DNA from: Quercus robur
Lineage: Eukaryota > Streptophyta > Magnoliopsida > Fagales > Fagaceae
Length of the DNA: 64,000 nucleotides
Direction of reading: 5' to 3'
Assembly (NCBI RefSeq): GCF_932294415.1
Contig: NC_065536.1
Coordinates: 46,411,854-46,475,853, forward strand
Position numbers and translations under genes: made by a program. Below, piece by piece: positions 1,417 to 58,552 of this stretch (position 1 is the first letter of the stretch; each line of letters opens with the position of its first letter). The notes beneath the pieces were generated by a model. That model saw only the letters and a list, made by a program, of their open reading frames with translations, did not search any database and was not told the DNA's origin.

Positions 1417-3333
1417 TCAATCCAGCACAACAAGTTTCTGATACTCTTCTCCAGAGATAGCAGCTTCCATGATAAGCTCTGGGTTCATAGCCCCATCATT
1501 ATCCAAAAACAACTTCATCAAATTCTTTGAATACCCACTCACCAATGCTACCCCATTCTGCGTCCCTGGTACTGGTGTGGCACTCGAATCCCTCAAGTTC
1601 CAAAACACAATCTCCGGTATCGCAGACCCGTACCCTTTCTTCCTAAACTTCCTCTGTATAGCTTCATAATCAGTCTCCCAATTATTCCGCGAAGCTTTAT
1701 CGAACTCCATGTCACTAAACACAAACAACCTCTTTACCATCTGATCCTCTTTCAACTTCCCATTCACAGCCACTTCCAAAATAAGGTCAAACACCTTCTG
1801 AAAATCTGTGTTCATTCCCCACTCCATTCTCCTCACGAAACTCGTCTTCGATACAAGATCATTGCCTGGAATCAAATAAAGCTTAGGTTTTTTACTAAAC
1901 GTAATAAGCTTCCCTTTCCATGGCTCTTCACTAAGTTCCGAAACCAACACTCCCAATGCAACAGAAACTTCCATTGGCACACCTTCCATACTTCCAGAGA
2001 CATCACAAATGGCAAGGCAATTCTTCAACTTGCCCTTCTTTAACAAATCATCCACCATTCTCTTCCATTGTAGCTCTTCCACTTGCCCACCATCGTTGTC
2101 ATTTAAAGACTTTATGATCTCATGTGGAAGTAATGCCCCGGCTGCGATTGTTGATTTCCCAGCCTTCACATCTTCCAAATATTTCTCAAATCGATCTTTA
2201 TCATACTTCAAGAACTTCTCTTTATAAAACTTCATCGCCACTGAAGCGACCCTATTGTACTTTATTCCATCCCACCTACTTGCACCAATATAAACCTCGG
2301 GCAACTCCAAAATCTTCCTTAAAGGCACTAAAACTTGCTTTCTCAACCTATCTCGAACTCTGTACACATAATGAGCCTCTTCCACACCTTGGTATTCGAT
2401 GTAAGACTCGCGAGGAAAAATCCTCCTTGCAATGCTTTCGCAAAGCAAAGTCGACCTATCAAATGAAGAATCAAGCGAAGGACACCACTTCGCTGCTAAA
2501 CTAATCTTCGTAAACTCTTCAGCCTTTAAGAATTCCATGTCAGCCTTCAAACACTCAGCAAAAAACTCCGAAACGCGATCATATAAGAACTTAAAATCCG
2601 AGTCATTCTTGTATTTTTTAAGAACTTTCTTGGCCATATCTGCATATTTGGAATGCCTCGCTTCACTTGCTTTTTCCTTTTCAATCCGAGCCCTCTCCAT
2701 CTCATTCAAGATCCTAATCTCTTTCACCACACGGGCTCTCTTTCTTTTATTCGAATGTTTTTTACTACTTCCAGGCCTTAAACGCATTCCTTTACTTAAA
2801 CTTCTACTACTCTTTTTCCCAGTTTTTCTGTGTTTCCACTCTTCTCTTTGATTCTTTCTCACATCAGAACCTTCTAAAAGCCTATACAAAATCTCAGGCA
2901 AGTCTTTCATGTAACCAAAATCAGAAAGAGACCCAATATTACATGCCAATGTCTTAGGGTGGTCTTTGTGTAGCCAAAACGCCGCCGTGTAAAACCCTTC
3001 TTTATCAGACTTTCCAGTACCACGTACTCCTCGGAGATTATAGATGAGTTTGAGTGTGGTCAAGGGGTTGTGGGTCCAAGCCAATATGAGCCTTTGAATC
3101 AAAGATTCTGCTGGGGTATCAGGTACAACATGGAAGAAGAAATCAAGGCATGGGTTACCGCTTGAGAGAAAAGTTGCAGAGTTGTTCTCTGTGTAGCCTG
3201 TTTTGGGTTTATAGTTAACGGTGTTGTTGAAGTTCTTAACCATGAGGTCCATGAAAGGATCGCTGGCTATGGGTTTAGGTTGGGGTTGGTTTCGGGTTTT
3301 GTTGTAGAGTCCGGGGGGACCAAGAAGAGTCAT
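1417..3333 (-). CDS. DUF2828 / von Willebrand A-like domain protein
   Basis: A single uninterrupted exon encodes 638 residues. The start is the ATG at 3333. The open frame reaches a GTG at 3402, but plant translation would use the ATG, which is followed by the family-like N-terminus MTLLGPPG. The N-terminal two thirds match the plant DUF2828 family, with a Lys/Arg-rich stretch in the middle that could act as a nuclear signal. The C-terminal third is a vWA-like fold: D444-V-S446-G-S448 is a metal-ion-dependent adhesion site (DxSxS), followed by a second conserved FSDMEFD segment. Length and the lack of introns agree with family members of about 600-700 residues. The biochemical role of the family is poorly known; a protein- or RNP-binding role is inferred from vWA/TROVE relatives. 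No break is visible, so the gene looks intact. It reads away from the transposon cluster downstream in plus coordinates. Confidence 0.92.
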   Translation of the reverse strand: MTLLGPPGLYNKTRNQPQPKPIASDPFMDLMVKNFNNTVNYKPKTGYTENNSATFLSSGNPCLDFFFHVVPDTPAESLIQRLILAWTHNPLTTLKLIYNLRGVRGTGKSDKEGFYTAAFWLHKDHPKTLACNIGSLSDFGYMKDLPEILYRLLEGSDVRKNQREEWKHRKTGKKSSRSLSKGMRLRPGSSKKHSNKRKRARVVKEIRILNEMERARIEKEKASEARHSKYADMAKKVLKKYKNDSDFKFLYDRVSEFFAECLKADMEFLKAEEFTKISLAAKWCPSLDSSFDRSTLLCESIARRIFPRESYIEYQGVEEAHYVYRVRDRLRKQVLVPLRKILELPEVYIGASRWDGIKYNRVASVAMKFYKEKFLKYDKDRFEKYLEDVKAGKSTIAAGALLPHEIIKSLNDNDGGQVEELQWKRMVDDLLKKGKLKNCLAICDVSGSMEGVPMEVSVALGVLVSELSEEPWKGKLITFSKKPKLYLIPGNDLVSKTSFVRRMEWGMNTDFQKVFDLILEVAVNGKLKEDQMVKRLFVFSDMEFDKASRNNWETDYEAIQRKFRKKGYGSAIPEIVFWNLRDSSATPVPGTQNGVALVSGYSKNLMKLFLDNDGAMNPELIMEAAISGEEYQKLVVLD

Positions 3334-3460
3334 GTCTGTGATCTGAGTGAGGATTGTGAGTTTCTGAATCTTTGTTTGGATTTTAGAAGGGAGCCAATTC
3401 ACGTAAAAATTAGAGGGCTTTGATCTGTTTCTAATGAAACGGCAGTGAGGGTTTCAGTTC

Positions 3461-4251: not shown

Positions 4252-4287
<36 letters not shown>
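3480..4287. other. AT-rich intergenic sequence
   Basis: Very AT-rich sequence with many short T and A runs and a TA microsatellite at about 4252-4281. No gene or terminal repeat was recognised. Confidence 0.5.
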
Positions 4288-4430
4288 TGAGAGAGTTTCA
4301 ACTTATGACGTCCGCTTCTGATGATACTCTTTATAATTAGATTAAAATACCAATTAGTTTTTGGTGTAGGCGGTGATTGAACCCCAGATCTCTTATTCAA
4401 TCATCAGAGACTTTACTAGTTGAGCTATAC
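4288..4430 (-). mobile_element. tRNA-derived SINE, family 1
   Basis: Read on the minus strand, it starts with a Pol III box A-like sequence TAGCTCAACTAG (4427-4416), then a box B-like GGTTCAATCACC (4383-4372). The spacing fits a tRNA-derived internal promoter. The element ends in an A/TA-rich tail (4252-4287). Its 3' part recurs at 31463-31546, so this is a dispersed family. It sits at the outer edge of the Mutator-like left TIR and hides the exact end of that TIR. Confidence 0.6.
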
Positions 4431-5174
4431 ATTTTTCTAAACCATTAGATTTAAGTAGATCTAACAGTATAAAAAAAGACTAATTAATGTCGATATTCTG
4501 ATTAGCATCTCATTTTAACCCTTACTTATGACATTCCATACTAGTCTCTTCTACCAAAAATGTGTTGTTCGTTATCTCTCCTTTCTCCTTCTACTCAACT
4601 CTCTACAAAGGGTGTGTTTGTTTTGGGCGAAAATCACTTCCAGAAATGCTTTTCCGGAAATGCGGGTGTTTGGTTGGTCCGAAAAATAGAATTTTCTGGA
4701 AATTGATTTCCGTTGACTGAAAAAAAAAGGCTTTGACTATGGAAATGAATTTCTGTTCCTATTTTCACTTCAAATGAATTCCAGAGAGAGAGAGAGAGAG
4801 CGCGCGAGAGGAAGAAGAGGCCCCCGAGCTCTAGTCCAGTCCGATGATCGCTGGTGAACCCCGAGCTCCAGTCCGCGCCGATCGCACGCACCAGTCGATC
4901 TCGCGAGCTCCAGTCCGACGACCGCGCAGTTGATCGCGATCGGTGCGTGCTTCGCGAGATCGCGATCGACGCTTCTCGAGATTGAGCCGTAGATTGCGAT
5001 CTTGCCTTCGCGCTGATCGCGATCTTGCGAAGCATCGCGCCGATCGCGATTGATGCTTTGTGAGATCGTGATCGGTGTGGTGCTTCGCGAGATCGCGATC
5101 GACGCTTTGCGAGATTAGCGTTGATCGCGATCTCAAGAAGCACCGCGTCATCGAACCCAATCGAGCGTCGATCG

Positions 5175-5208
<34 letters not shown>

Positions 5209-5945
5209 GTCCGTGTTTTTTTGGGTTTGTCTTTTCCTTCTTCTTTTCCAAACACCAGAAAATATTTTTCGGAAAATTTTTTGAAATGCAACCAAACACA
5301 TGAAAACATTTTCTTTTCCGAAAAATAGCATTTCCGGAAAATAGATTATTTTCCGGAAATGGATTATTTTCTGGAAATGCTTTACACGAACCAAACATAG
5401 CCTAAATTAGAATCTTTCTTCTCCACCACTTGTCCATCTCCATTGCCACAGGGTTCCACCTCCATGGCCATAGGGTGGGTTACCAGTAGCGAAAAAAGCC
5501 GTAGCCGCTAACACCGACACCGATATTAGAGGTTTGTTGTTCCTTTCTTGATAGTGTGAATTTTTTTTTCCTTTCTTACCGTTGGCTTTTCATTCTTTGT
5601 ATCTATTGTGTATTAGCACTTTACTTGGTAAAGCAAACTTTTGAAGAAAGCTTGTAAATTAGTTTATTTCTTGGCCATTGGCTATTATATATCCTATAAG
5701 TTTGCGGTATATAATTAGACTATGGATTGCTCATATGCATACTTTACCTATTGGATTCGAATCTAGCTTGATGGTTTCAAATCATAGTTGCTTGTGTGTT
5801 ATTTATTGTTGCACAATGGGTAAGGTTGAAATTTTAATTTTTTTTTCCACTATTTGTTTGTAAGGTTGAAATCATAGTGACTATTGCTTGATTGACCTTT
5901 TATGTAATAGTACTTGGCTTGTTTACAATTAGTCACAGATATTGG
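4428..5945 (+). repeat. Left terminal inverted repeat of the Mutator-like element
   Basis: Matches the reverse complement of 13678-14441, interrupted by a foreign element at 4610-5402. Without that insertion it is about 725 bp. The inner edge is near GTTTACAATTAGTCACAGATATTG (5928-5945), after which the two copies diverge. The first line of evidence is direct sequence similarity. Confidence 0.72.
4610..5402. mobile_element. TIR element inside the MULE left TIR, GATCGCGATC-rich
   Basis: Ends read GGGTGTGTTTG at the left and, in reverse complement, AGGCTATGTTTGG at the right. Inside them are further inverted segments of the type TTTCCGGAAA(A/T). The other MULE TIR (near 14240-14270) lacks this block and so gives the empty site CTCTCTAC-AAAT. 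The middle (4800-5170) is unusually GC-rich and full of TCGCGATC palindromes. A long Arg/Ser-rich open frame on the minus strand (4634-5398) is a by-product of these repeats. TIR wording fits hAT or Harbinger MITEs. The target duplication is short and ambiguous (AA or AAA). Confidence 0.65.
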
Positions 5946-6117
5946 CTACTAAATCTATTGTGTATCAGATTCTATGTGAAGACATTTTTTTTTTCTTTCT
6001 TATTGTTGCAGACCATGGATTTCTGGCTTTTCTTACTTTTGAATTATTCAAAGAGCTTTAAATATGAAATTGTGAAAGACTAAAAAAAAAAGCTTTATTT
6101 TGCAGGGAAATGCTAGA

Positions 6118-7521
6118 AGGCTCCTGTCGTGCCCCAACCCTACAAATGTAAATAATTATGGAAGTGGATTTGGGCTCCAAATCTATTTGTTGGTGGGATT
6201 TCTCATAGTCCTACAAATTTAGCCTCAAACAGAGCCTAAATAGCCGAATTACAAGTACCCTCGTGATTTCTAGCCCAAAAACCCTCTCCTTCTCAGACTT
6301 AATATCTTACTATCTCTTGTATGTCTCCCTCAGTTCTATCATCCTCCCTCTTTGTGTCTATTCTTCCCCTTTCTTCTTACTTCTTTCTTGCTTTTTTTTA
6401 TTTTTTATTTTTTTTAGCAAGCCCTTCAGTAGCCCCACTTATTTGGCCTCACTCCACTTATATAATATCTTCTTAGTGAGATTCCAATCATTATTGTTTC
6501 GCCAAGTTCCATGTAATCCCACTTTCACTCAGAATCCCAAGGAATCATCACGTCTTTTGAGGATTTTCTTGAAACTTGTTTCAGACGCTAAATAGTGCTC
6601 GACAAAGACTTCCCAAAAGCACTTCTAGCGCTTGGTGCCGATCTAAACTTCTCTACTTCCTTGTTAATTTTGTACTGTTTTGACGGTTAGTAGTGGGCCG
6701 AGATGTGACTGAACACTTAACAAGTTCACTGAACATTGCTCTCTAGATCTTGATACACATATTGTTGGGCCAGGCCCATCCAGGCTAGTTTTGGCTAGTG
6801 TATTTGGGCTTAAGCTTGGTGGGCCGGTACCAATCACCTAGCCCAAGTCTTGTGGGGATGGGCTCGGCCCAACAATAAGTGTATCAGGATTTGGAGAGCA
6901 ATGTTTGGTGAACTAGTTAAGTGTTTGGTCACATCTTGGCCTATTACTAACCATCAAGACAGTACGAAATTAACAATGAAGTAGAGAAGTTCAGATCGAC
7001 ACCGAGCGTTAGAAGTGCTTTTGGGAAGTCTTTGCCGAGCACTATTTGGCGTTTGGAACAAGTTTTAAGAGAATTCTTAGAAGACGTGATGATTCCTTGG
7101 GATTTTGAGTGAAAGTGGGATTGCATAGAACTTGGCGAAACAATAATGATTGGAACCCCACTAAGAAGAGATTATATAAGTGGAGTGAGTGTAGAGAAGT
7201 GGGGTTGGTGAAGGGCTTGCTAAAAAAAAAAAAGAAGAAGAAAAAAAGCAAGAAAGAAGTAAGAAGAAAGGGGAAGAATAGACACAAAGAGGGAGGACGA
7301 AAGAACTGAGGGAGATATACGAGAGATAGTAAGGGATTAAATCTGAGAAGGAGAGGGTTTTTGGGCTAGAAATCACGAGGGTACTTGTAGTTGGGCTGTT
7401 TAGGCTCTATTTGAGGCTAAATCTGTAGGACTGTGAGGAATCCCACTAACAAATAGATTTGGAGCCCAAATCCACCTTCATAACTATTAACGTTAGTAGG
7501 GTTGGGGCACCATAGCTCCTT
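6118..7521. mobile_element. Fold-back element with 666-bp inverted arms
   Basis: Left arm 6118-6783 and right arm 6856-7521 are inverted copies of each other along their whole length, around a 72-base spacer. Shared blocks include GTGCCCCAACCCTAC at the outer edge, CTAGCCCAAAAACCCTCTCC / its complement, and TATTGTTGGGCC next to the centre. The similar open frames beginning MISSPKTLSF in both arms are a consequence of the duplication. No transposase is present. Transcription through this block would form a long double-stranded hairpin. Target duplication not identified. Confidence 0.85.
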
Positions 7522-9090
7522 TACAAATGTTTTGATGGGAATACAAAATGTATTATTAGTGACTAAGAATTTTTTTTTTAATTTTTTTTTTCAGGTTTGA
7601 GAGTGATTATGGAACAAAAAACACTATTGTATAAGTTTTTAGCTGTTATTGGTAATTGTATTTATGTTAGTTGTACACTTGGCCACCCATTGATTGAATC
7701 GCTTCTTTATATATCAGATTTTGTAATTAGAGATGTCATAAGGATGTGTTTCAACAAGTTTTAAGAAGAAAAGATGTTTCTATTCTACCTAAAAAAATAG
7801 CCTTTGTTTGATATGGCAAAACTTGTGATTATTTTCAGCATTGAATGAACTACTTTTTAATTCACCATTTTCAATTGTAAATCAAATAATAAATTTACAA
7901 GTAGTTAAAGTCTCTAATCAATCCCATTTGGAAGTGTATTTGGGAATTGAAATTATGCATCACTCATTCCATTTTTCTCAAATCATTTCCATTTCAAGAG
8001 AAAAAAAAAAAGATCCAATGAATGCATTTCATTCTTCTCATATCATTTTGCACTTAGGGAAAAAAAATCCAATGAATGCAAATGGAAAAATGATAATTTA
8101 TTCAAACTTTTCGGTATCAAGAGAAATTCATTTAAATGAAGAAACATTCATACACATCGGTACACTAAACAAGATAAAAAAGAGAATACAACAAAAGAGT
8201 AGTAGCTTTACATAACTTGTTAAGAACACTTTTGCGTTCATTTCCTAGTTACTTTTTCTCAAGTGGTTTTTCAACAAAAATACTTCACTCAAACTAGTCA
8301 AAATGATGACTACTTAAATCCAAAGTAGCAGCCAAGAAAAGAGGTCTACCATTTCTTGCTTTACACAAAAAGACTGCCTCTGTCTTCCTTTGTTGCTCCT
8401 ATTTCCATCCATGAGCATAATAGTTTGCCAAAAACTTATATGTCTACATTACAAAATGAATATAGGATAAAACAAAGAGTATAGAATTGCTTGAAAATCT
8501 GAAAAAATGTGTCTTAAAAACTCCGTTAAAGACATTAAATTAAATCAAAAGCAAATGAGTAGTTGTAACCAAAAGTATGGCTAAACTGCTACTACCCTCC
8601 ATGTATATGTTGTCATGGATCAAAGACTAATAGCTAAGGTTCTTAGCCAGAAATTTTCAAACAGTATTCCAACATAGGTCCCTAAAAAACAAAACCAAAC
8701 AAAAATAAAAAACCAACATGTACCATTTCATCATGATTAACAACATAGGTCCTCAAACATTTATATTCTAAGCTACTTTGACTCAATATATATCTCAATT
8801 CCACCAAGCGAAGCTCATTTTGTGATTTTCTTTAGCCACATGTACCTAAAGTAAAAAAAAAAGGTATAAGTAAATTTGAAACACAAGATATATATTATTA
8901 CAATCAAAATCAATACTAAGTCCCATCCTCCAAAATGTAATTTAAGAAAAGCAATTTTGTGAAGAAACATATACCAAAATGTGCAATTGCCTGCCTCCCA
9001 TACTCCATTTTGTATATAAAAAAAATCAGAAACATCAACATCTTTACTCCTCAATGATTCCCAAAGTTAGAGAGACCTAGTAGTTTTACA
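7522..9090. other. Internal MULE sequence, no gene recognised
   Basis: AT-rich, no recognised coding sequence. An open frame at 7841-8215 (plus) is low-complexity (short repeats of the type TCCAATGAATGCA) and is not called. This is presumably original interior of the Mutator-like element. Confidence 0.4.
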
Positions 9091-10349
9091 CACTATAGCA
9101 AATAAGACTTATGGTGATGAAATAGTTTCATCATGAAATGTCCTTATTTTGTCGCCTAAAACATATGGTGACGAAACATCATTCGTTGCGTGATCTCAGT
9201 CACGGAATCAGAATGTGTTGGTGACAAAAAGTTTTGTCACTTACTTTTTTTTTAATAAAAAAATTATAGGTGACGAAAGTTTTTTGTCACCTAATATTTT
9301 CCTTGCTAAACATTATTTTCAGAGACAAAATAAATTCGTCACCAATTATTTTTAATTTGTAATTTTTTATTTGACCATATTAGGTGATGAAATATTTCAT
9401 CATTGATTGAATTTTTGTTTTTTTGATTTTCCAATGTCAATAGATTAGGTGACGAATTATTTTATCACAAATTTCTGTTTATTTTCAAAGTTCAACCTGT
9501 TAGTGAAACATTTCATCACCAATTGATTTTTTGCTCTTTAATTTAGCATTTTAGTGACAAATAAGGTTGTCACCAAAATTTTTTAATTGTCAGTTCAACC
9601 TATTTGTGATGGAAAATTTTTGTCACCTTTTTTTATAAAAATTTATTAATGTTTTTTACATTAAATTTCCATTATATTACATTAACCTATTTATTTCTAA
9701 TCACATCCATAAACAAATTAGTTATACAATCTTTCCAACTACATCCATAAACAAATCATCCATATAATCTAAAAAGTAAATAAAAATGCATTATATTCAT
9801 TTGGAAGCTTTTGCCCAATTTCCTCCCTGCTACCAAGCAGCAACTATTACAATAAAACATACAACTTGAGCAACCTCTTTGTTCTTTGTGTGCAATGAAA
9901 ACAGAAACCATAGAGCATCTATTCTAAGAGTGTGAATTTGTGAGAACAATTTGCTTCAATGCATCTTTCAAGTGTGATCATCATGCTGACAAGCAAAGAC
10001 GTTTGTTTATTGGATTAGAAAAAGCTCAAGCTAGCTCAAATTTAAATCCAATTCTAGCAACTTGCTAACAAACTCATAAAAACTCCCTTAATTGATTTGA
10101 AATCCCAACCTATCCGAAACCAAAATAAAAAATGCCCCACACAACAAAACTAAACAAAAATACTATCTACTAGACCCACCATAAATTAGTTCAAAATTTC
10201 TAAGTTAAATATCCTTTAGCAAAGTTAAGCAAAGCATTAATAGACTTATAATGAGCCATACACATAGGACTTATATATATGAGGCCCATGGCTTCAAACC
10301 CAATAACTCACAATATCAATAAAAAACAAAAAAATGAAGAAGAAAAATC

Positions 10350-10403
<54 letters not shown>

Positions 10404-10803
10404 TAGGGTATAGGGTTTTTTTACAAAAAAAAAAATAATGAATAAAATTTGGGTACTAAAAATTTTTTTTGTACGCGCCCAAAAATTGTCATCACGTGCT
10501 AGTATTTCGAGACCAGTGACACCTAGGTCTAACTTTTTGAAATGAAATATTTCGTCATCATAGACACTCGTAGGTTTGACGCCTTTTTTTTGTTTTTTTT
10601 TTCATGAACTATAGTGACAAAAGAAATATTTTGTTACCAATTTGAATATCTTTAGAGACAAACTATTGATTTCGTCACAATTTTCAAAAAATTTAATGGT
10701 ATTTGGTGACAATTTTCTTTTCCTCGCTGAATGTTATCATTTAGAGATGATAATTTTTTTTCTTAACTAGATTTCGTCACCATAGTCCACGTTTGTTGTA
10801 GTG
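9091..10803. mobile_element. Non-autonomous CACTA (En/Spm) element
   Basis: Starts CACTATAGCAAATAAGAC at 9091 and ends, in reverse complement, CACTACAACAAACGTGG at 10803. ACA flanks both sides (9088-9090 and 10804-10806), which is the 3-bp target duplication diagnostic of CACTA elements. Both subterminal regions carry many degenerate copies of a GGTGA(C/T)GAAA motif in both orientations, as expected for transposase-binding subterminal repeats. The 1.7-kb body has no transposase frame and includes a GA microsatellite (10352-10400), so it must have been moved in trans. Confidence 0.88.
10352..10400. repeat. (GA)n microsatellite
   Basis: Uninterrupted GA repeat of about 24 units inside the CACTA element. 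Confidence 0.95.
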
Positions 10804-11524
10804 ACAATGATTTAATAATTAGGACACATAATATCAAATTATAACAGGAATGACAAAAAAAAAAAAAAAAAAAAAGACAAAAAAAAATGAAATGAAAAAC
10901 TCTCTTTATGCTAAATCATCAATATTATTATGCTAAATCATCAATATTATTGGCATCAAAAGTTGTCATATTTTCTTCATCTTGGCAATCACTTCCCTTC
11001 ACCATTATATTATATACAAGTATGACAATTATGACCATAACCCCCAAAAAGTTGACAAGATCGTCTTTTTGTTGTTGCATGAGGTAAGGATATTTCAAGC
11101 CCCACCTTAAATTCTCCCCCCATGACCTTCCAATGCTTTTCTTTTGACCTTTATTTGTGATACATGCAGATCTTTTATATTCAAAGGAACATTGGGAGAG
11201 TAGTCTTGTACTTCAACAATGTTAGTTGATTCACCACTATTGTGGTGCATATTCATTTCATCATTTTACTTACCTTCAAGTATTTGATTTTCCATATCAA
11301 AAGCTTTCTTAAGGGTGTGGTCTAAGTTGGAAATGATCATTTCATATATATCTTCAGATTTTTCAGCAAAGTAAGACAATCGACTTAAATTATGACAAAC
11401 ATGGATGCTTCATAAGGCTCTTGACATGTAATGCTCATCTACACAGCTTGATCTATATTCTCCTCTTTTGATTCCTTTATTTGCTTCTTTTGTCTAGCGT
11501 TGTAGGATGTAATGACTAGGAATC
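10804..11524. other. MULE interior with a short tandem duplication
   Basis: AT-rich. Contains a perfect short tandem repeat of ATGCTAAATCATCAATATTAT at 10908-10951. No protein recognised; it would be the 3' flank of the transposase relic. Confidence 0.45.
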
Positions 11525-13250
11525 TCAAAAAAATTTAACTTGAAAGATTAATAACATGTGCCTACAAAAAATTCCCATAAAATCAAAAAGTTGGCAGTCA
11601 CATTCACAAACTTTTGATTCCAAGTTCAACTTCACAATAAATGTATCATCTAGACCAAAGGAACTTGTTACTTTGTACTTATATAAAGTTCCATTTTTCT
11701 CTACCTTTTCCTTTGAAAAATGATTACTACTCACCAACTCTTTTTGGAACTTGCTAAATATGGTTCTCATGTATACAGATACAACTTGATCTTTATTTTT
11801 GAGCTAATTACCAAAGAAGGACTTTTATGTCTTGAATCAAAATCTTCATTTCGACTATTTATTGTTTTTGCAAATTTGACACCCAAAACTTGTAATGTAG
11901 TTCTTGAGTTTACAAAGGAGTCAAAGAATTTCACTTCTCTAGGTAGTGTTTATTCTTGTAAAGAAAGTATTTCAATTGTACACCGGTAACCATGAATTGC
12001 GAATATTATATAATCCTTGAAGCCATTCATTTCTATCCAAACCATAAGTCAATATTCGGCTCTTCTAGTCCTCCTCAAATTTTTACACACTAGGTGACTC
12101 ATGTTTGTGTCTCTTCAAATCACATTTGAATATTGATTTCTTATGATATATATGGGAAAGTTTCTCCTGAAATTTCTTATTAATATGCCAAAGGAAAAGA
12201 TGATGACGAGTTCTTGGGAATACTTTTGCAATAGTTGCGCCCATGGCTAAATCTTGATCTGTAATAATAGATATTGATCCCTTCCTCCACATTACTTGAA
12301 GCCAAGTTTCTAATAACCACACAAAAGTTTGTTCTGTCGCATTTTGCAACAATGCACAAGCAAATAAAATTGATTGACAATGATGGTTTAACCCAATAAA
12401 AGGAGCAAATGGCATATCATACTTGTTTGTTTTATAAGTAGTGTCAAATGTCACTACATCCCCAAAGTATTGATAAGCCATTCTTGATTGCGCATCCACC
12501 CCCCAAAAAATTAACCATATGGCCAACATCACCACATTGAATTGCATAAAAGAAATAGAGTTTTCAACTTGCTGTTCTTGGCAATAATTAAGGCCAGCAA
12601 AGGCATGTCTAGCATCTAGGATTTCCCCCCTAACATCTATCAAGTGATTCTAGCAATCTCTACTTGTAAACATTTGGTCACCTACATTGAACATCATGGC
12701 AACTTTTCTTGTTGGAAGACCTTCTTCACCAAAATTTTCAAAAAGACTCTTGGCAATAGTAATTTTTTTTTTTTTTTTTTTGGGAGGCATCAAATGTATG
12801 ACACACTTTTTATTATTAATTATACCATGACTGTGGTTGTTGTCAAATGCCTTAACAACCCCTTTATGCAACTTCTTATTCTTCATGACCTTAAGCTTGT
12901 ATCTAGTTCTAAGACTTGAACAATTTCTACGAGCCTTTTTTTTCATCATCTTTGTTCTTTCCATTATCAAATGTCTTTTTTCTTTTGGGTTGCCCTTCAC
13001 TACAACTTACATAAATACGACTTGTTACACTATCACTTATGGGTGTTGTTTTACTGATACAAACACGGATTCCAAAGCCTTCTTTTTTTGCAAATTCTTT
13101 GTAAAATGTTTCAACACCATCAAGGGAGTCAAATTGCATTCCGACATATGGCTTGGATTTCAACTCACAATCACCAAAATCATCAAGTGGTAACTCTTGC
13201 TCTGGTAGTTCTAAATTGTTCGGGGCGTGATATAACTCTTCACATTCCAT
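11525..13250 (-). pseudogene. FAR1/FHY3-type MULE transposase relic
   Basis: Conserved pieces occur in the correct order on the minus strand but in shifted frames. From 13250 to 12927 there is a FAR1 DNA-binding domain start (GMQFDSLDGVETFYKEFAKK). From about 12950 to 12800 follows its second half, ending NNHSHG. From 12643 to 12083 is the MULE transposase core with DVVTFDTTYKTNKYDMPFAPF, ITDQD and the LFLWHI segment; the two aspartates of the DDE triad are in these motifs. Around 12050-11880 remnants of the WLQGLYNIRNSWLPVY and FFDSFVNSRTTLQ type are interrupted by stops. From 11770 to 11525 is a SWIM zinc finger with CECDC and CRH. Frameshifts and stops mean no functional protein. Position next to the right TIR supports a transposase rather than a domesticated FRS gene. 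Confidence 0.85.
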
Positions 13251-13677
13251 TTGGTCATTATTTTAAATAACACCATCTTGATGGAACTCTTGGCCAAAAT
13301 CTTGATGGAAATCTTCTCCCCACAAAATAATCCATATCTATAAATTTGCAACTTAGTAACTACAAGAACCAATATAAATAATGGACACAAATATAAAATA
13401 TGCAAACATATTAAAAATAGTAGCTACAAAATAGAAATAAAAATTTAAACTCTCAATCAGACCCAATCAACACCACAAATGACAAACAGCAGAGAACAAG
13501 ACACAAAAAACAGTTGAAAAAAAGAATTAAAATTTCATCCTTATCAATTGTGCAATAATAAATAACACTGTTCACGGTTGACTTGGTCAAATAGTGCGGC
13601 TGGAACCAAAAGAAAAAAAAAAAGCTTGAAAACGCAATAAAACTTTCAGCTACTTTCAGCCCAATCCAAACGCTCTC
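13251..13677. other. MULE interior between transposase and right TIR
   Basis: AT-rich, includes a segment (about 13480-13560) that is repeated at 13770-13855 inside the right TIR (both contain CAGAGAACAAGACACAAAAAAC). It may hold the transposase promoter. No gene. Confidence 0.45.
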
Positions 13678-14441
13678 AATATCTATGACTAATTGTAAAA
13701 GAGCCAAGTACTATTCCATAAAAGGTCAATCAAGCAATAGTCACTTTGAGCAAAACAATTGTCAATAATAACAAAGAGCAGAGAACAAGACACAAAAAAC
13801 AACGAAAACTAAAATTAAAATTTCAACCTTACCAATTGTGCAATAATAAATAACACACAAGCAACATTCAGCAAAAAAATAACACACAAGCAACTATGAT
13901 TTGGAACCATCAAGCCAGATTCAAATCCAATAGGTAAAGCATGCATATTAGCAACTGATAGTCTAATCATATAACGCAAACTTATAGGATATATAACATC
14001 AAAGGGCCAAGAAATAAACTAATTTACAAGCTTGCTTTACCATGTAAAGTGCTAATACATAGTAGATACAAAGAAAGAAAATCCAACGGTAAGAAAAATA
14101 AATCTTCACAGTATCAAAAAGGGAACAACAAGCCTCTGATATCAGTGTCAGAGCTACAATTGTGGCTTTTTTCGCTACTGATGACCTACCCTATGGTCAT
14201 GGAGGTAGAACCCTGTGGCAGTGGAGGCAAAAGAGCGGTAAAGGAGAAAGATGATTTGGTAGAGAGTTGAGTAGGAGGAGAGAGAACATACAACGCATTT
14301 TCGATAGAAGAGAGTGATATCAAATGTCATAAATAAAGAATAATAAATGAGATTCTAATTAAAATATTAGTATTAATGAGTTATATTTTTGACTGTTAGA
14401 TCTATTTAAATCTAATGGTTTAGAAAATGTGTAACTTGAAC
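13678..14441 (-). repeat. Right terminal inverted repeat of the Mutator-like element
   Basis: Reverse complement of 4428-5945 without the 0.8-kb insertion. Relative to the left copy it has a short duplicated stretch around 13850-13905 (AACACACAAGCAAC occurs twice). It serves as the empty-site reference for the insertion in the left TIR. Confidence 0.72.
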
Positions 14442-14493
14442 TCGTATATATATTTCGAAACTTATATATAATATCTTAGATATAAATCAAGAT

Positions 14494-15688
14494 CTTCTGT
14501 ACTATAAGTTGTGTACCACTCCATGTACCAGTAATAAAAATATGACACTTAGCTGCCCTTTTATTTCTCCTTCTAAACTAACGTTGGGTTAACATTACTA
14601 ACATTCTTGTATTTCAACGCTAGGTAACTTTAGCAATTGTTTTTTTGGGTTTTACCCTCTTTGTTATGGCTTCCTTCCTCACGTCTGGTATTCACTCTTC
14701 GATTTGATTTGTCACCGCTGCTTTTTTATTTTTTGTTTATAGCTCACGTTGAACTTGAAAGAAGCAGAACAAGGCACGCAATATATTATTGCTATTATTC
14801 ACGACCTTATTGGGCTAAGGCTCATAATTTCTCACAACCAACATATTGGGCAAATGGCCCATAATCTCTCTGCTTAATGAAGTGTATTCATAACCCGTAG
14901 TTTTCTTACTTCAGGACTTAGGCTTGTCTTTGAATGGGAGATGTTCGATTTCAAGTTATTTGACAAGCCACTTGGATTATTTGGTTTTTTAAGAGAATTA
15001 TAAATAAATAAAAACACTTATTTTCAGAGAAATCTCTGGAACTAATTTGCATTGTAATTTTTTTTTTTTTTTAAATACAAGATAAAACCACTCAACAGTT
15101 TGGTGTAGAAGTATCATTGCAATTTTTTTTTGGGTCTGGTGCATGAAACTAGAAAGCCCCTGCCAACAATCTTCCTTTAACATAACATAATCAAACAATT
15201 ATCTGATGTATACAAAAGACACAATCTACCTCCAAAAAGATCCAAAATTTGCAAAAAATTCAATATCCACACCGCAACAGAGAGAAATTTATTTATGTGT
15301 TACCTATGACAAACCCCAAAATTTGCAAAAGAGATGAAATTGGGACATTAACCACAACAAAGACCTAAATCCCATAAAAACAAGAGATTACCTTTACCTA
15401 AAACTTCATCCACTAGGAAATGAACACTGATTAAACTGGAGATGGTTTCCTTCATGGTGGAGCTACCGTTGAGAAAAAAGAGAGAGAGAGGGGGAGAGTT
15501 GGTACGGAGGGCTGGAATGGAAGAGTGAAGGCTACCTCAGACTCAGATTCACAAATGTAACGGTGAGGAATTAACCTTTGTCGTTTGTCTCTCCCGTTAG
15601 TTTGAGTAATAAAACTATTAAAAAGGCAGCCAGGTATCATGTATTTATTAATGGTACATAGAGTGGTACACAATTTATTATACAGAAG
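14494..15688. mobile_element. TIR element, about 1.2 kb, unclassified
   Basis: The first and last hundred or so bases are inverted copies: CTTCTGTACTATAAGTTGTG at the left against CTTCTGTATAATAAATTGTG in reverse complement at the right. The similarity continues through GTACCACTC(C/T)ATGTACCA and CTGCC. The interior has no recognisable transposase. Longer TIRs suggest a Mutator-type non-autonomous element, but no target duplication was found, so the class is not settled. Confidence 0.6.
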
Positions 15689-15855
15689 CCTCTCTCAGGT
15701 ACCCCTTTTAAAATTTAAATACTGTTCACTTGCTTAACCGTGAAACTAGTGATAGTATTCCATCTATTTCTTTTTCTTCTTTTATTTTTCCTTGGTTTTT
15801 AGACTTTGAACTCACGCAAGAAATCCTAAAACCCAAACTTCTCTCAAGCAATAAT

Positions 15856-18157: not shown

Positions 18158-20083
18158 ATGGATCGTGGGCAATCCTTGATTATCTCTCCTTTATTTGATG
18201 ATACTAACTATGCATACTGGAAAGTATGTAAGAGAGCTTTTTTTGCAGTCCTTAGTTGAGAAAGTGTGGCTGGCAGTTGAAGTAGGTTGGAAGAAACCTA
18301 AAGAGCCACCCACAATGTGGGATGATGCTAAGATCAAAGCGGCTAACTTTAATAGTAGAGTATTGAATGCTCTATTTAGTGATGTGACAAATGAAGAATT
18401 CAAGAAGATCTCTTCCATTGACAATGCCAAGGAAGCTTGGACTATTCTTCATAACACCTATGATGGCAATAAAGCTGTTAAAAACTCTAAGCTCGAAAGG
18501 CTCACTGCTAGTTTTGAGGAAATAAGGATGGATGAGGACGAGTCATTCGATGAATTCTATGCCAAGCTCAAGGACATAGTGAATTTAGCCTTCAATCTTG
18601 GAGAATAGATTCCAGAGCCCAAGATTGTTAGGAAGATCCTCAGATCTCTTCCAGAGAGATTCCATGCCAAGATCACTGCCATTGAAGAATTAAAGGATCT
18701 TGACTCTATGTCTTTGACAGAACTGATTGGGAACTTGCAAATCTGTGAACTAGGGATAGCAAGAGTTGGCAAGGGTGGTAAAGGCAAGAACATGGCCTTG
18801 AAGACCAAAAATGATGACAATGATGAGTTGTTTGATGATGAGGATACCAAGTTGAAATTTTATATCACTAGACAATTCAAGAAGTTTATCAAAAAATGCG
18901 AATGTCAAAGCTGGTGATAAGGATTGCAAACAGTTTGCTTTCTCTCAATTTAAGTCCCAAGACAAAGGCAAGAGAGAATCCAAGGATGTGGGTCAAGGCA
19001 ATAATGTTCCTGCTGGACCAAAGTGCTATGGGTGTCATGGATTTGGACACATGAAGCAAGAGTGTCCTACATATCTCAAATCCATTGGCAAAAGCAAAGC
19101 CTTAGCTGCCACATTAAGTGATTTAGAACCTAAAGCAGATTTCGATGAAAGTGATTAAGAAGGGATAGTAAGTGCTTTTACAACTATTGTCGAGTCTACT
19201 GAAGAAGAAGTAGACATAATTGATGATGAAGAAGAGCTGATGGAATTGAAGTTTAAAAAAATGGATGATCAGGATGACATTCATACTACCTACGCTAAGC
19301 TATACAAGGTCTTTGAGAAGCATGAGAAGCTCTACAGGTTGGCCACAAGAAAGCTCAATGAAGTGGAGTTAGAATGTGAGAAACTCTCCACCAAGGTTGA
19401 TGAAGCTAATTAGACTATTGGAGCATTAAGGTTTGAGAATAACTTTCTTGTTGAAAAGGCCAAGAAACTGGATGCTAAATTGTTTTAGGTTAGAGCACAA
19501 TTGGAAAGGAATTTAAGTGCAAAACTGGATGAAATGCTGAATGTTCAGAAGTCTGCATCTAACAAAACAAGTCTTGGGTATGATCACTCTCTCCTCTTCT
19601 AATGCTTTAAATAGAGTTATTTTTGTTCCACCTGCTAATAATGATAACTCTGATAATTCTGAGGTAACTGATCCTAAAACTGAAAGTGTGACTGAGGATA
19701 AGAGTGATAGGGGAAAATTCATTCTAGGAGCACTACCTAAGGTTGGTAAGAAAGAGACTAAGCAGAATAATCATCGCTCAACCAACAAGAAGTCTGAACC
19801 AAAGAAGCCTCACTTCTGTCACTACTGTGGAGCATCAGGGCACACTCGTCCAAATTGTTATAAATGGTTAGCCACTCATCAAAGTAATAGTGTGTCATCT
19901 CTAGGGAACCAAAATCAACTCCAACTCTCTTTAGTCCTCTTGGAGAACTTCTTAAAGCAGTCATGCTTCTTTCGAACTTCAATGGTTTTAACTCCCCTCC
20001 TTATTCATTTGAACAAAGGTTCATGCAAAAGAAAGGATCTCCATCCAGGTCTCTCGTCTGGAAGAAAAAAGATTCTAAGTGAC
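18158..20083 (+). pseudogene. Ty1/copia gag relic with two zinc knuckles
   Basis: Begins MDRGQS, then a UBN2-type copia gag core (WLAVEVGWKKP, AKEAWTILHNTYDG, SFDEFYAKLKDIV), a first zinc knuckle CYGCHGFGHMKQEC (19021-19062) and a second CHYCGASGHTRPNC (about 19815-19860). The end is near the TGA at 20081-20083. It is broken by a frameshift in the T-run at about 18240, a TAG at 18606, a frameshift in an A-run near 18890, stops at about 19156, 19411 and 19486, and another shift near 19590-19600. No protease, integrase or reverse transcriptase follows, which points to a gag-only non-autonomous lineage or a deletion. Confidence 0.85.
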
Positions 20084-31228: not shown

Positions 31229-31372
31229 TAAGTACTCTCGGAATACTATAAATGCGTACTCCCTCCTCTCATATGAATGGTGGGTCCCACTATGAATTTA
31301 ATTAGTGGGACCCACCATTTATGTGAGAGGAGGGAGTACGCATTTATAGTACTCTGGGAGTACACAATAATT
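31229..31372. mobile_element. Hairpin MITE, about 140 bp
   Basis: Two arms of about 68 bp, inverted and nearly identical, flank a 14-base loop (TATGAATTTAATTA). Arm landmarks are CTATAAATGCGTACTCCC and GGTGGGTCCCAC and their complements. Outer sequence is ATTATT / AATAAT. The whole element could fold into one stem. Confidence 0.8.
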
Positions 31373-31462
31373 TCCCCTCATTAAAATGTGTTTATGCGTC
31401 GGTCCATGCTCTACTGCCTACTAGAAAGAAATTAGTAGATCCTTTTAATTTTTTTTTTCCCA

Positions 31463-31546
31463 GAGAGTTTCAACTTATAGTGTCCGCTCCTGATAATAAC
31501 TCTTTATCATCAGATCAAGACACCAATTAATTTTTGGTGTAGACTA
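31463..31546 (-). repeat. Fragment of SINE family 1
   Basis: Matches the 3' half of the SINE at 4288-4430 (GAGAGTTTCAACTTAT, GTCCGCT(T/C)CTGAT, ACCAATTA(G/A)TTTTTGGTGTAG). The Pol III boxes are missing. Confidence 0.6.
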
Positions 31547-52631: not shown

Positions 52632-52769
52632 GATAGAGACAGGTTTTCTCTCTAAGTTTCCTAGGAAACTCCTGAGGTGAAAAAAGTGGCTTGTCGTCAG
52701 ACAAGAGTCGTTTCTCCTTTCCGGTAGAAATATTCCAGTGCGGGATTCAGTTTAGGTTGGTTGCTTCCA

Positions 52770-54457
52770 ATGGAGGAAATCGCAAAGAAGTGTGAGAAAC
52801 TAAAACTGACAGAAAATGAAGCAGAACAGGTAGTCCTAGAAGAAGAGGAGGTGAATGAGGGCTGGGTTCTAGCAGGTAAGTTTCTGTCGAAAAGGCATAT
52901 TAACTTGGGGGCAGTAGTGAAGGCCTTGAAACTGATATGGAAAACAAAGGAAAACTTTGTGGTACAGGACATCGGTGACAATACTACTCTGTTCTTGTTC
53001 CAAAATGAAGGGGACATGAATAGAGTACTATGGGCAAGCCCATGGTCTTTTGATAAATACTTATTAGTCCTCCACAAGCTGGGTAAAGGGGACTCAATCT
53101 CAACGATAAGCTTCGATAGGTCTTCTTTCTGGATACAGATACATGGCCTACCGATGAGAATGCAGACGATGGAGGTCGCAAACAAGATTGCAGGGCCTTT
53201 GAGGCTGATAGAGAAGGTGGATATAGGTTCAAAAGGGTTCAGGTTGGGAAAGTACCTTAGAATAAGAGTGAACATCGATATATCAAAACCCCTGTGCAAG
53301 GGAAGGGTGGTGCGAATGGGAGAAACGGAGAAGGAATGGGTCGATTTCCGATATGAGCGCCTCCCCATCTTTTGCTATTGGTGTGGGAAACTGGACCACG
53401 ACGATAGAGATTGCCCACTCTGGTTGGACAACAATGAGTCCCTAGAGCTTGAAGAGAGGCAGTACGGCCCCTGGCTCCGTGCAGATACGGAAAGATTGCA
53501 AAGGCCGCAAGTTGCAGAAACACCATCTCGGAAAAATGAAAAAGACGGAATTAAGTCCGGAAACCAGAAGCAAAGCAAAATCCAGGCAATGAATAGTAGG
53601 TGGAGATCATCGGAAAAGGCAGGACATGGTGGAGTGGGTGAAATACCAACTACATCGGTAATGTCGAACCTAATGTCAGAGGCGGTCATGATGGATGTGA
53701 CTTTTCAAAGAGAGAAGGAAGATGACTTTGAGACGCAATTAAGGGAGATTGATTGTGCCATTCATGCAGTAGACACGGAAAAGGAAAAATGGGAAACCGG
53801 GAGGCTATAAGGGAAAGCAAAGTAGCTACAGGCTTTTCAAATAATGCTCAATCCGAGGAGTTGTCTATGGGCGGGAAAACGGACAAGACCCTTATACCCC
53901 AACGACCACACTTAAGCCCATCAGCTGATCTAGCGGGCCCAAATGGGCTTGGACAAAACCAAGTAGAAGCCCAATGTAGCCAGAGTCATACGGCCCAGGT
54001 GTTAGTTGAAGGAGGCCGGATCTTAAGAAGCAAGGGGATTGATATCTGCCTAAACGAACAAAAGCAAGTCAACGTAGCAAGGAGCGAAAGTTTAGGACAG
54101 AATACAAGAAGCCAAAAGAAACTTCCAGAGGAAACAAAAACTCTCGTGAACAGGGGAAAGGAGAACGAACCTCCAGCGGGTGAGGTTGAGATTCAGCAAC
54201 CAGCAGCACAAAATGGGGCCAAACTTGGAACATGGAAAAGATTGAGGAGAGACGGAGCAGAGGTGACGCACCATTCCAACAATGGGTCTGAATCGGGATC
54301 AAAACGGAAAGGGTCGGCACCACTCAAAGTACTCCAAGAAGAAACAGAGAGCTGGAAAAGAAGCAAGAAAGAGAATGAAGCGGGTCCGGAGGGTCACCTC
54401 TGGGCAAAGCACATGGGTTCGGCGGAGGCTGCTGCGCAGCCCCGCCGTCATCAATGA
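52770..54457 (+). pseudogene. LINE ORF1 (nucleic-acid-binding, DUF4283 and CCHC knuckle), frameshifted
   Basis: Starts at the ATG 52770 (MEEIAKKCEKLKL). A DUF4283 region covers about residues 45-180. A zinc knuckle CYWCGKLDHDDRDC lies at about residues 205-220. The frame stops at 53810 (TAA). A second frame carries on (from the overlap at 53753-53810 to the TGA at 54457) with the normal ORF1 tail, rich in Gln, Lys and Arg and ending AAAQPRRHQ. This indicates a frameshift near 53,755-53,805. The final TGA overlaps the ORF2 start as ATGA. ORF1 proteins coat LINE RNA. Confidence 0.85.
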
Positions 54458-57400
54458 GTACAATGGCCTGGAACTGTAGGGGGCTTGGGAACCGGCGTAC
54501 AGTTCATGCCCTTGAGAAGGTAGTGTCTTCTGAAGATCCCAGTTTTTTTTTTTTAATGGAAACAAAATTAGTTTTATCTGAAATGGTTGGTATAAAGGAG
54601 GGGTTGAAAAGGTCCCAAGGGCTGGTGGTGCCGTGCAAGGGGCGTAGTGGGGGATTAGCATTGCTTTGGAAAAAAGAGTTGAAAGTGGATATCCAATCTT
54701 TCTCCGACAGCCACATTGACGCGATAGTTGATCAGGGGGTTAACGGGAAGCAATGGAGAATAACAGGTTTTTACGGAAACCCGGAAACGAGTAAAAGACA
54801 AGAATCTTGGCTTTTGCTCAACCGGTTATCCTCTCTGAACTCTCTGCCGTGGGTCTGCCTTGGTGACTTTAACAAGTTGATGAATAGTAGTGAAAAGGAG
54901 GGTGGCTGTACTCGACCGGCGAAACAAATGGAAGCCTTCTGTGATGCAATTAACACGAGTAACCTTCGTGACATGGGGTATACAGGCCAAGACTTTACTT
55001 GGAGTAGACGCTTAGGCAGCAGAGGTTGGGTTAGGGAGCGGCTTGACAGAGCTCTAGTCTCAACAAATTGGGCAGCCAGGTTTCCGAAAATGCAACTCCA
55101 CCATAAACCCAACTCATCCTCTGATCACTGTATTCTAATTCTCAAGGATATTCAGCAAAAAAGAAAGGGTGGGCGTCGTAAGAAAATGTTCCGCTTCGAA
55201 GAAATGTGGCTGAAAGATGAAGCTTGTGTCGGAGTGATCGAAGAGGCTTGGGACAGAGGATTGCACATGGTGCCCATTTCTCCTCTTTCTTCCTGTCTAG
55301 AGGAGTGTAGGCGCTCCTTGTCTGCCTGGAACAATAACTCTTTTGGGCATGTGGGGAAAAAACTAGCGATGCTGCAAGCTAGATTGGAGGGGTTGGAAGG
55401 TATGAGGGGGTCCTCTGTTACACTGAAGGAGATAGAGTGCACTAGAACAGAGATAAACACTTTATTGGATACTGAGGAAATCATGTGGCGCCAAAGGTCC
55501 AGAATATGCTGGCTGAAACACGGGGATAAAAACACGTCTTTTTTCCATACTAAGGCTTCAAGCAGATATAACCGGAACACTATCCAGGGTGTGATGGATA
55601 ATTCTGGGAACTGGCAAAGTGAAGATGAGGGTATTGAAAATTCCTTTGTGGACTATTTTGGGAGCCTATTTACTACGTCCAACCCAGTGGTGAGTGAGGA
55701 ACTTATCCTTGCTATTCAAGGAAAGGTGACGGAGCCAATGAACGTTTTGCTCACTAGGTACTTTCAGGCTTCAGAAGTGGACTCTGCTCTAAAACACATG
55801 TACCCCACCTCAGCTCCGGGCCTAGACGGGATGCCCCCAATTTTTTACCAGAAATTCTGGTCTAAGGTACGCCTTGTAGTTGTAAAATCTGTTTTAGATT
55901 TTCTAAACTTAGGCATTATTCCCCTGCACTTCAATGAAACACACATTGTTTTAATTCCAAAAGTAAAAGAACCACAAAGGGTGACAGATTTTCGTCCTAT
56001 TAGTCTATGTAACGTTGTGTATAAACTTGCATCCAAGTCTATTGCCAACAGGCTTAAACAGATTTTACCTAAGCTAGTGTGTGAGAATCAAAGTGCCTTT
56101 GTGGCTGAAAGGCTCATTACAGACAACGTGTTGGTGGCGTCGGAGACAATGTATCATATCAGCCAGAGAAGGAAGGGCAAGGTGGGGGAGATGGCATTGA
56201 AACTGGACATGAGCAAGGCCTACGATAGGGTCGAATGGGGCTGCCTGGAACGGATAATGCTGAAAATGGGTTTTGCGGAGAAATGGATAGCACTGATCAT
56301 GAAGTGCATTTGCTCAGTCTCTTATGCCATCAAAATTAACGGAATCCCTCAAGGCCACATCATCCCGTCAAGGGGTTTACGGCAAGGGGACCCATTGTCT
56401 CCTTACCTCTTCCTTATTTGTGCGGAAGGGCTTTCAGCAATGCTACACAAGGCTGTGCAAAGAAAGAGCCTTAGTGGGATATCCGTTTGTAGAAGAGGGC
56501 CAAAAATCTCCCATCTCTTTTTTGTGGACGACAGTATCATTTTTGGGAAAGCAACCGAAGCGGAGGGAGTGGAAATCCTAAGAATTCTCAAAGTGTATGA
56601 AGCTTCTTCGGGGCAGCTGCTAAATAATCAGAAAACCTCCCTCTTCTTTAGCAGAAACACAAGAGGAGAAGTGCAAACAAAGATCAAAACTATGTTTGGC
56701 GCTCAAGTGATTAAGCAACATGAAACATACCTAGGTCTTCCCTCCCTAATTGGAAGATCAAAATCCAATTCCTTTGCTTAATTGAAGTCCAAGGTAGCTA
56801 ACAAACTGTCGGGCTGGAAAGAGAAACTCCTCTCGGCTGCCGGCAAAGAGGTTCTCATTAAGGCCGTGGCTCAAGCGGTCCCGTCCTATACTATGAGCTG
56901 TTTTAAGCTCCCGGATAACCTTTGTGATGACCTTACCAGCATGATAAGACAGTTTTGGTGGGGCCAAAGAAAGAATGAGAAGAAGCTGGCCTGGGTTAGT
57001 TGGGAGTGGCTATGCCAATCAAAGGAAAACGGTGGGATGGGCTTTAGGGACTTGAAGAGTTTCAATAAGGCTCTCTTAGCGAAACAATGGTGGAGGCTGC
57101 TGTCCAACACCCAATCTCTTTTCTCAAGGGTTTTCAAAGCGAAGTATTTCCCGGATTGTGATTTTACTGAGGCTTCCATTGGTCATCACCCGTCTTTTGC
57201 GTGGCGAAGCATAATGTCTGCCCAATCTGTGGTTAAGAAGGGGGTTAGGTGGAGGGTGGGTAACGGCAGAAGTATTCAAATCTGGACTGATGAATGGCTG
57301 CCATCCTTGTCTTACCCGAGGATCCTCTCTCCCGCTCAGGTCCAGTGGGCTAACGCAAAGGTTTGTGACCTCATTGTGGAAGATCGTGGAGAATGGAACT

Positions 57401-58552
57401 TGGCCGTTGTTAAGCACCTCTTTAATCCTATGGAAGCTGACCTGGTGATGAGCATCCCTCTTAGCCAAAGGTTGCAAGCGGATAGAGTGGTCTGGGAGGG
57501 GTACAAGAAGTGGGAAATTTTCGGTTAGCAGCGCCTATCACAGCATCCGTGCAATGGAGAATTCCAACAAGGAAGATTGCTCTGATACATCGGAGATGAA
57601 GAACCTTTGGAAACGAATCTGGAACCTGCATCTTCCTAACAAAATCTGGAGTTTTGCATGGAGAGCCTGTCGAGGTGCCTTAGCCACCAAAGCCAACCTG
57701 AAGAAGAGGCAAATCACAAAGGATGAGACGTGCAACCATTGCGGGAAGGAAGCCGAAACCAGCACTCATCTCTTTTGGTTCTGTGATAAGGCGAAAGATG
57801 CTTGAAGCAACAGTAAAACGACTCTCCTTTTCTCTATTGATAAAGGATGGGATTTCATTGATGTAATATGGCAGCTAGTGAAACAAAGCCCGGTGTCCTC
57901 ATACTTAATGGAAAAAACCATCTCCATGTGCTGGGAAATTTGGAAGGACAGGAACACCGTTCGTAACGGGGGTATGAGTCGGTTAGGTAACACTCTGGCC
58001 AGGAGCTCAGTTGCTATAGTGGAGGAGTTCAGGGGCGCAAACGAAAGGGTGTTTCTGTCTGGTCCAGAGCGGCATGTCAGGTGGCTTCCTCCAGAACCAC
58101 CTCGGTACAAAATGAATGTTGACGCTGCAATATTCTAAGACCTTCGGGCTATGGGGGCGGGTCTGGTGCTTAGGGACTCACAAGGCTTGGTCTTGGCTGC
58201 TATGAGCAAGAGAGTCCCTGCCAACCTAGAAGCGCTAGAAGTAGAGGCGAAGGCTATGGAAGTTGCAGTCCAGTTTGCAGGGGAGGCGGGGTTTATAGAG
58301 GTGTATTTTGAGACCGACTCCAGCACACTTAAGAATATCCTAACTGGAATATCAGAGGCCCCTGCCTCTATTGAAACAATCACAGACAACATCTTGGCCC
58401 ATTTAGATAATTTCCGTTTTGTTTCTTTCTGTCATGTTAAAAGGGAAGGCAATAGGCCAGCCCACATCCTAGCCCAACATGCAAAATATGTGGGTGATTT
58501 TGTTGTATGGTTGGAGGAAACTCCAAACTTGATTGAGGACGCGTGTTCTTAG
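54454..58552 (+). pseudogene. LINE ORF2 (endonuclease, reverse transcriptase, zf-RVT, RNase H), broken
   Basis: Starts MSTMAWNCRGLG. Endonuclease residues of the EEP fold are visible: N in WNCRG, E in METK, GDFN and SDH. The reverse transcriptase has KLDMSKAYDRVEW, GLRQGDPLSPYLF and the active-site segment FFVDDS (usually FADD). A zf-RVT domain with CNHCGKEAETSTHLFWFC follows, and a C-terminal RNase H-like domain ends near 58552. Breaks: TAA at 56779-56781, a frameshift between about 57515 and 57553, TGA at 57803-57805 where Trp is expected, and TAA at 58136-58138. The endonuclease and most of the RT lie in the first uninterrupted 775 codons. Confidence 0.93.

Follow-up and report, generated by a model that had tools for sequence, protein, structure and literature searches.

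The window, by which we mean the whole stretch of 64,000 nucleotides analysed here (C3:46411854-46475853 of the 785.7-Mb Quercus robur genome, 42 contigs), contains what is almost certainly an old cut-and-paste Mutator-like element (MULE, Mutator superfamily) of the FAR1-domain, or Jittery-like, kind, with its terminal inverted repeats (TIRs) and its transposase together in one element. The element is degenerate, measures ~5.9 kb by coordinate arithmetic once three nested inserts are subtracted, and represents a new family of an already known kind, FAR1-type transposases with attached TIRs having been known before. The TIRs, the transposase domains, the family copies and the 9-bp duplications in relatives are all directly observed. 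The principal features are as follows.

4431..4609, no strand: left TIR, outer part (82% ungapped identity to the right TIR, Kimura two-parameter distance, K2P, 0.205)
5412..5944, no strand: left TIR, inner part (90% ungapped identity to the right TIR, K2P 0.114)
13677..14448, no strand: right TIR, its outer edge placed by the family terminus GAGATGGGTTCAAG, with 4 mismatches here
11525..13250, minus strand: decayed transposase relic (FAR1 - MULE - SWIM) containing stops and frame breaks
12927..13250, minus strand: FAR1 domain, N-terminal part (PF03101, E 5.1e-5, 24.3 bits)
12086..12649, minus strand: MULE transposase domain (PF10551, E 1.8e-27)
11525..11770, minus strand: SWIM zinc finger (PF04434, E 4.8e-7)

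The original prediction described two blocks, 4428-5945 and 13678-14441, as inverted copies of each other, and self-BLAST of the window bears this out: 13677-14252 matches 5944-5412 in the minus orientation (E 1e-125), and 14256-14446 matches 4609-4414, also minus (E 2e-34). The right block was placed correctly to within a few bases, its outer edge being set at 14448 by the family terminus, from which 4 of 14 bases deviate here. The left block has the extent that was claimed for it, but not the continuous homology, which is broken by a non-homologous insert at 4610-5411. From the coordinates, the TIRs are ~712 bp (left) and ~772 bp (right) in length, and roughly 17 bp of the terminus are absent at the left end. 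Long TIRs (~0.7 kb, E 1e-125) and a MULE transposase domain (PF10551, E 1.8e-27), both features of the MULE superfamily, are thus present in the same element. As a separate observation, the inner TIR block (window 5615-5965) recurs in permuted order in another repeat (L003-L006), of which the four fetched copies share ~93-98% identity; the one designated L003 gave no Pfam domain.

The transposase relic lies beside one TIR, as had been predicted for a relic of FAR1/FHY3 type. It starts 427 bp inward of the right TIR (13250 versus 13677) and reads away from it. The FAR1 domain is divided over two frames; in a single frame it scores 24.3 bits, under the cut-off of 28.1, while the two frames read jointly score 31.4 bits, over the cut-off. 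FAR1 precedes and SWIM follows the MULE domain both in the window and in the related copy A (below), and this order would place the element with the Jittery-like MULEs. A domesticated FAR1/FHY3-family (FRS) gene would have an intact frame and no TIRs; here the frames are broken and TIRs are present. Comparison of the MULE domain with solved structures gave no match at E 0.1, and an IMG/VR search returned no relatives of it.

Both the TIRs and the transposase belong to large families. With the right TIR as query there are at least 53 genome matches, four of them in the window's own element, a lower bound on copy number as 40 of 436 candidates were scored. Recurrence is strongest for the outer 120-240 bp, and inverted pairs ~1 kb apart are frequent among the matches. 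They have a common outer terminus, GAGATGGGTTCAAGTTACAC, followed by a variable number of ~25-bp units; in the loci L009-L028 and L059-L062, such units (like GTTACACCTGGTGTAACTCTAAAGA), again variable in number, separate the outermost 14 bases from the remainder of the TIR. With up to one mismatch allowed, the genome has 628 occurrences of the 21-base family terminus GAGATGGGTTCAAGTTACACC (302 forward, 326 reverse) and 0 of the same pattern read backwards, which served as a control.

A 9-bp duplication had been predicted at the outer edges, and for the family this holds. The right-TIR search gave nine pairs, at which the flanking 9 bases were taken outside the best-scoring terminus; these agree at 9/9 in four pairs (TTCACAAAT, TTCAAAAAA, ATTCTTCTT and one TA run), at 8/9 in one, at 7/9 in one and at 1-5/9 in three. 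Four further pairs (L072-L075), selected by eye among the listed matches of the terminus search, agree at 9/9 in two (TTATGGTTT and ATTAAGTTA), at 8/9 in one and at 5/9 in one. Perfect 9-bp duplications therefore flank six of all 13 short inverted pairs (~0.9-1.2 kb), including one pair within a TA run, and match the duplication expected of MULEs, so that 9-bp target-site duplications (TSDs) are established at the family level. For the window copy itself, the prediction is borne out only as a suggestion (7/9 or 8/9, depending on the edge).

The MULE domain, used as a query, has at least 150 genome matches including the window, again a lower bound, with 150 of 414 candidates scored. In a tree of 29 of the best 30 loci, 13 copies including that of the window form one clade with support 100/100; the tree holds copies of this genome, and L044, possibly a clade member, was omitted as too short. 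Since L039 and L041 lie 12 bp apart and are counted as one place, the clade has 11 other places, and a TIR end is found beside eight of these: copies A (L030) and B (L032), and L033, L035, L036, L037, L038 and L040. For A and B the flank examined extended ~9 kb to either side; at eight places it took in ~1.5 kb to either side as well as 4 kb upstream, and at L039/L041 ~1.5 kb to either side. Among the 17 other transposase-like loci (L042-L058, including L044), for which ~1.5 kb on each side were searched, none has a TIR end.

Three of these copies are particularly informative. Copy A has 86% DNA identity over 2.4 kb, clear FAR1 (74 bits), MULE and SWIM domains, and one TIR end found. In copy B (9.9 kb, on C5) both TIRs are present, with a transposase at 85% that lies closer to the opposite TIR than in the window copy. 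In copy C, which is the L033 place (7,336 bp, C2:33683736-33691071), both termini bracket the transposase, and the flanks of the copy, TATTCTTAA and TATTCCTAA, agree at 8/9. The expectation that other genomic copies would combine TIR and transposase is therefore confirmed at eight of 11 other clade places, with both termini at two of them (7.3 and 9.9 kb). Copy B additionally contains a ~6-kb run of open frames between the transposase and the right TIR, which is probably a nested insert, a retroelement. The peptide LITDYLSRK appears in two frames of this run (L061/L062, ~9437-15749 of the joined stretch), and a scan of one frame per strand of L062 gave no match.

These copies bear on two other accounts of the same arrangement. 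The blocks could be the halves of an inverted segmental duplication with an unrelated transposase relic between them, as might be suggested by their length (~0.7 kb) and by an identity of merely 75-77% in the BLAST alignments. However, self-BLAST of the window (matches above 60 bits) gives no left-versus-right flank match beyond the TIR edges, and the outer ends recur elsewhere, both as inverted pairs ~1 kb apart and around other transposase copies. Copies B and C, with both termini and the transposase, refute this account in substance, and we regard its probability as practically nil; the claim that the blocks are not a segmental inversion agrees with neighbours that lack any listed duplication and with the 628 occurrences of the terminus. 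Alternatively, the relic may be a decayed host FRS gene that came to lie between the TIRs of a non-autonomous MULE by chance or by capture. FAR1 genes do have the identical domain order (PMC8599713), and MULEs are known to acquire fragments of host genes (PMC6446971). Against this stand the placement of the window copy in one clade with 12 others (100/100), stop codons in the matched stretch of eight of these 12 as opposed to six of the 17 next loci, and the repeated association of the clade with TIR ends, beside eight of its 11 other places. A host-gene origin is thus highly improbable, if marginally less so than the segmental duplication.

The identification as a FAR1-type MULE with its own transposase nevertheless has observations that count against it. 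No TIR end is present in the examined flank at three of the 11 clade places (L031, L034 and L039/L041); four of the 13 short pairs agree at only 1-5/9 of the flanking bases, and one at 7/9; the left terminus is absent at the window copy; the Jittery-like placement is suggested by the order FAR1-MULE-SWIM, with a tree that took in copies of one genome only; and the window copy's own 9-bp duplication is only suggestive, reaching 8/9 only if a SINE-like fragment at the left edge is a later insert. The features at the outer edges, together with a second SINE piece farther along the window (SINE, short interspersed nuclear element), are:

4290..4430, minus strand: tRNA-derived SINE fragment adjoining the left TIR
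31462-31542: second piece of the repeat found at 4290..4430 (self-BLAST of the window)
4279..4287, no strand: possible left copy of a 9-bp target duplication, TATATTTTG
14449..14457, no strand: possible right copy of a 9-bp target duplication, TATATTTCG

At the edges given in the original prediction, a target duplication was rejected (best agreement 7/9, chance 18%). Across the SINE-like fragment, TATATTTTG and TATATTTCG agree at 8/9, which has a chance of 0.9% (for at least 8/9, with a shift of up to 5 bases allowed in either direction) in a test that was chosen after the sequence had been seen. The fragment is probably Au-like; an IMG/VR search with an Au SINE pattern found none, and a literature search for Au SINE strings returned only papers unrelated by title. 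On its left the SINE-like fragment is preceded by a TA run, and on the right side there is a short TA stretch.

The relation could also be the reverse: instead of the SINE-like fragment having inserted into or beside the left end of the element, the element may have inserted into a SINE that now lies at its left edge. By comparison with the Au SINE, the fragment would be truncated at its 5' head exactly at the start of the TIR, and TAACTTGAAC on the right side is similar to the expected remainder of the SINE head. However, that resemblance is equalled by 156 of 4000 random stretches, the letters of TAACTTGAAC are part of the family terminus GGTTCAAGTTACAC, and the TA run sits outside the SINE-like fragment, as it does outside many family termini. 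We consider insertion into a SINE unlikely.

For the element as a FAR1-type MULE, a mode of transposition can be proposed by inference from MULEs generally. The transposase, whose gene faces inward from its position next to the right TIR, would have bound the TIRs, excised the element and reinserted it with a 9-bp staggered duplication. The short non-autonomous family members, often in TA microsatellites, were presumably mobilised in trans by the same transposase or by related ones. The copy in the window is dead: the transposase no longer has an intact frame, the left TIR is split, and the place of the left terminus is taken by a SINE-like fragment.

Among known elements, the closest likeness in behaviour is to MuTAnT of Medicago truncatula, which is found mostly in TA microsatellites (204 of 218 copies) and has 9-bp duplications at other sites; AutoMuTAnT is its putative autonomous member (4.9 kb), with a transposase similar to that of Jittery (PMC4486113). 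The oak family likewise has a Jittery-like transposase, short non-autonomous relatives, a TA-microsatellite habit and 9-bp duplications. It differs in its terminus, GAGATGGGTTCAAG as opposed to the MuTAnT TIR mask GGGGTTTGCTAGAACA, and in size, since 90% of MuTAnTs are 200-300 bp, compared with ~0.9-1.2 kb for the 13 pairs (PMC4486113). Because the printed TIR mask differs, we do not file the window element as MuTAnT, though the family seems MuTAnT-like in its behaviour.

The Jittery subgroup, in dicots and monocots, is listed with an N-terminal FAR1 and a C-terminal SWIM (or CCHC) domain and one transposase open reading frame (PMC6446971 Table 1), and the window element is similar in having FAR1 at the N-terminus and SWIM at the C-terminus. 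The subgroup's TIRs are given as 39-292 bp or none, and its TSDs as 8 bp or not indicated, unlike the ~0.7-kb TIRs and 9-bp TSDs seen here; the long TIRs do not exclude the Jittery group, because TIR length is reported to vary independently of phylogeny (PMC6446971). In grapevine, a MuDR-like family has 710-bp TIRs (PMC2528002 Table 4), and there are two multi-copy Jittery-like families together with single-copy domesticated relatives (PMC2528002). These two, Jitvine-1 and Jitvine-2 (11.9 and 14.4 kb), resemble the oak family as multi-copy Jittery-like MULEs of a woody plant, but have neither TIR nor TSD in Table 4. SaTar of guayule and rice (including Micron) is comparable in that its non-autonomous MULEs occupy microsatellites and have matching autonomous counterparts, one of them with 400-bp TIRs; in guayule its TSDs are 10 bp rather than 9 bp, and the available SaTar text does not mention FAR1 (PMC5907723). 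The Ac-mMITEs of pineapple are a further microsatellite-targeting case (PMC8449440).

For the oak family, 32 ends were examined for TA runs and five without a clear terminus were dropped. A TA run (at least 4 units, within 20 bases outside) is present at 12 of the 27 termini with a clear motif, compared with 70 of 9140 20-mers in the window (0.8%) and 137 of 7036 in the fetched loci L009-L028 (1.9%); ends that belong to a single copy are not independent of each other, and the flank of L014 is also that of L027 (one insertion in a duplicated stretch). Insertion at TA microsatellites is therefore enriched, but is less strict than the 204 of 218 copies reported for MuTAnT (PMC4486113).

Other features within the element are as follows (LINE, long interspersed nuclear element).

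4610..5411, no strand: nested insert of ~0.8 kb splitting the left TIR, non-homologous to the right TIR, with ends AGGGTGTGTTTG and AGGCTATGTTTG
6124..7515, no strand: long foldback within the element, arms ~655 nt (88.5% identical), loop ~74 nt
8910..10887, plus strand: nested LINE relic, zf-RVT at ~9736-9949, with an A-rich tract at its end
13478..13568, no strand: incomplete tandem copy (89% identical) of the subterminal TIR segment 13767-13856

The insert at 4610-5411 contains a GC-rich block of GATCGCGATC-like repeats, has short inverted ends, and is possibly a miniature inverted-repeat transposable element (MITE). The foldback is taken as a nested insert. The stretch 8910-10863 is not present in copy A and is thus an insertion relative to it, which we read as a nested LINE fragment because of the zf-RVT relic inside and the A-rich tract at its end. 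The sequence in which these insertions occurred would be a matter of inference; nested insertions are ordinary in maize and rice, where they occur in over a third of candidate coding MULEs (PMC3903597). ULP1 or other cargo in 7516-11524 was considered and rejected, as six-frame Pfam searches gave only the zf-RVT LINE relic and two matches below the cut-off. Region 5945-11500 has 19 open segments with a length of 55 aa or more; 10 of them were scanned and gave a single match, far under the cut-off, and no Rfam family reached its gathering score within the window.

Elsewhere in the window, a 678-aa open frame adjoining the element (1420-3453, minus strand) has DUF2828 (E 1e-138) and DUF7788 (E 1e-79) domains, and is apparently an intact gene. 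A Copia-type gag fragment (PF14223, E 2.5e-10) is found at 18180-18605 (plus strand). A short palindrome of ~95 bases around GTGGGTCCCAC...GTGGGACCCAC (31250-31345), possibly a small MITE, lies shortly before the SINE fragment at 31462-31542. Two LINE-type retrotransposons are located where G+C exceeds 0.40, one at 52728-58549 (plus strand; endonuclease, reverse transcriptase and RNase H-like domains) and one at 60126-62486 (minus strand; reverse transcriptase and zf-RVT).

A degenerate FAR1-like pseudogene is now tied to a mobile element with ends, relatives and target-site duplications, and its annotation should read transposon, not FAR1 gene. The transcription factors FAR1 and FHY3 are said to derive from such transposases, a view attributed to Hudson (2003) and Lin (2007) and reportedly long accepted. 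The special value for the origin of FAR1/FHY3 that the original prediction saw in an element with TIRs still attached is weaker than proposed, FAR1-domain MULEs with TIRs having been published (PMC6446971 Table 1; AutoMuTAnT, PMC4486113), and by itself the element does not change what is known of that origin. Its interest is modest, and lies in the anatomy of one dead element within a large family and in the addition of another FAR1-type MULE family with a link to TA microsatellites, which makes target choice by this transposase group testable. Because MuTAnT, of a legume, and the oak family have different TIR ends and both have Jittery/FAR1-type transposases, we tentatively raise the possibility, which we do not favor at present, that a preference for TA microsatellites is general to FAR1-domain (Jittery-like) MULE transposases rather than peculiar to MuTAnT. 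In that case the target would be picked by the transposase itself, which is of the FAR1 type ancestral to the FHY3/FAR1 transcription factors.

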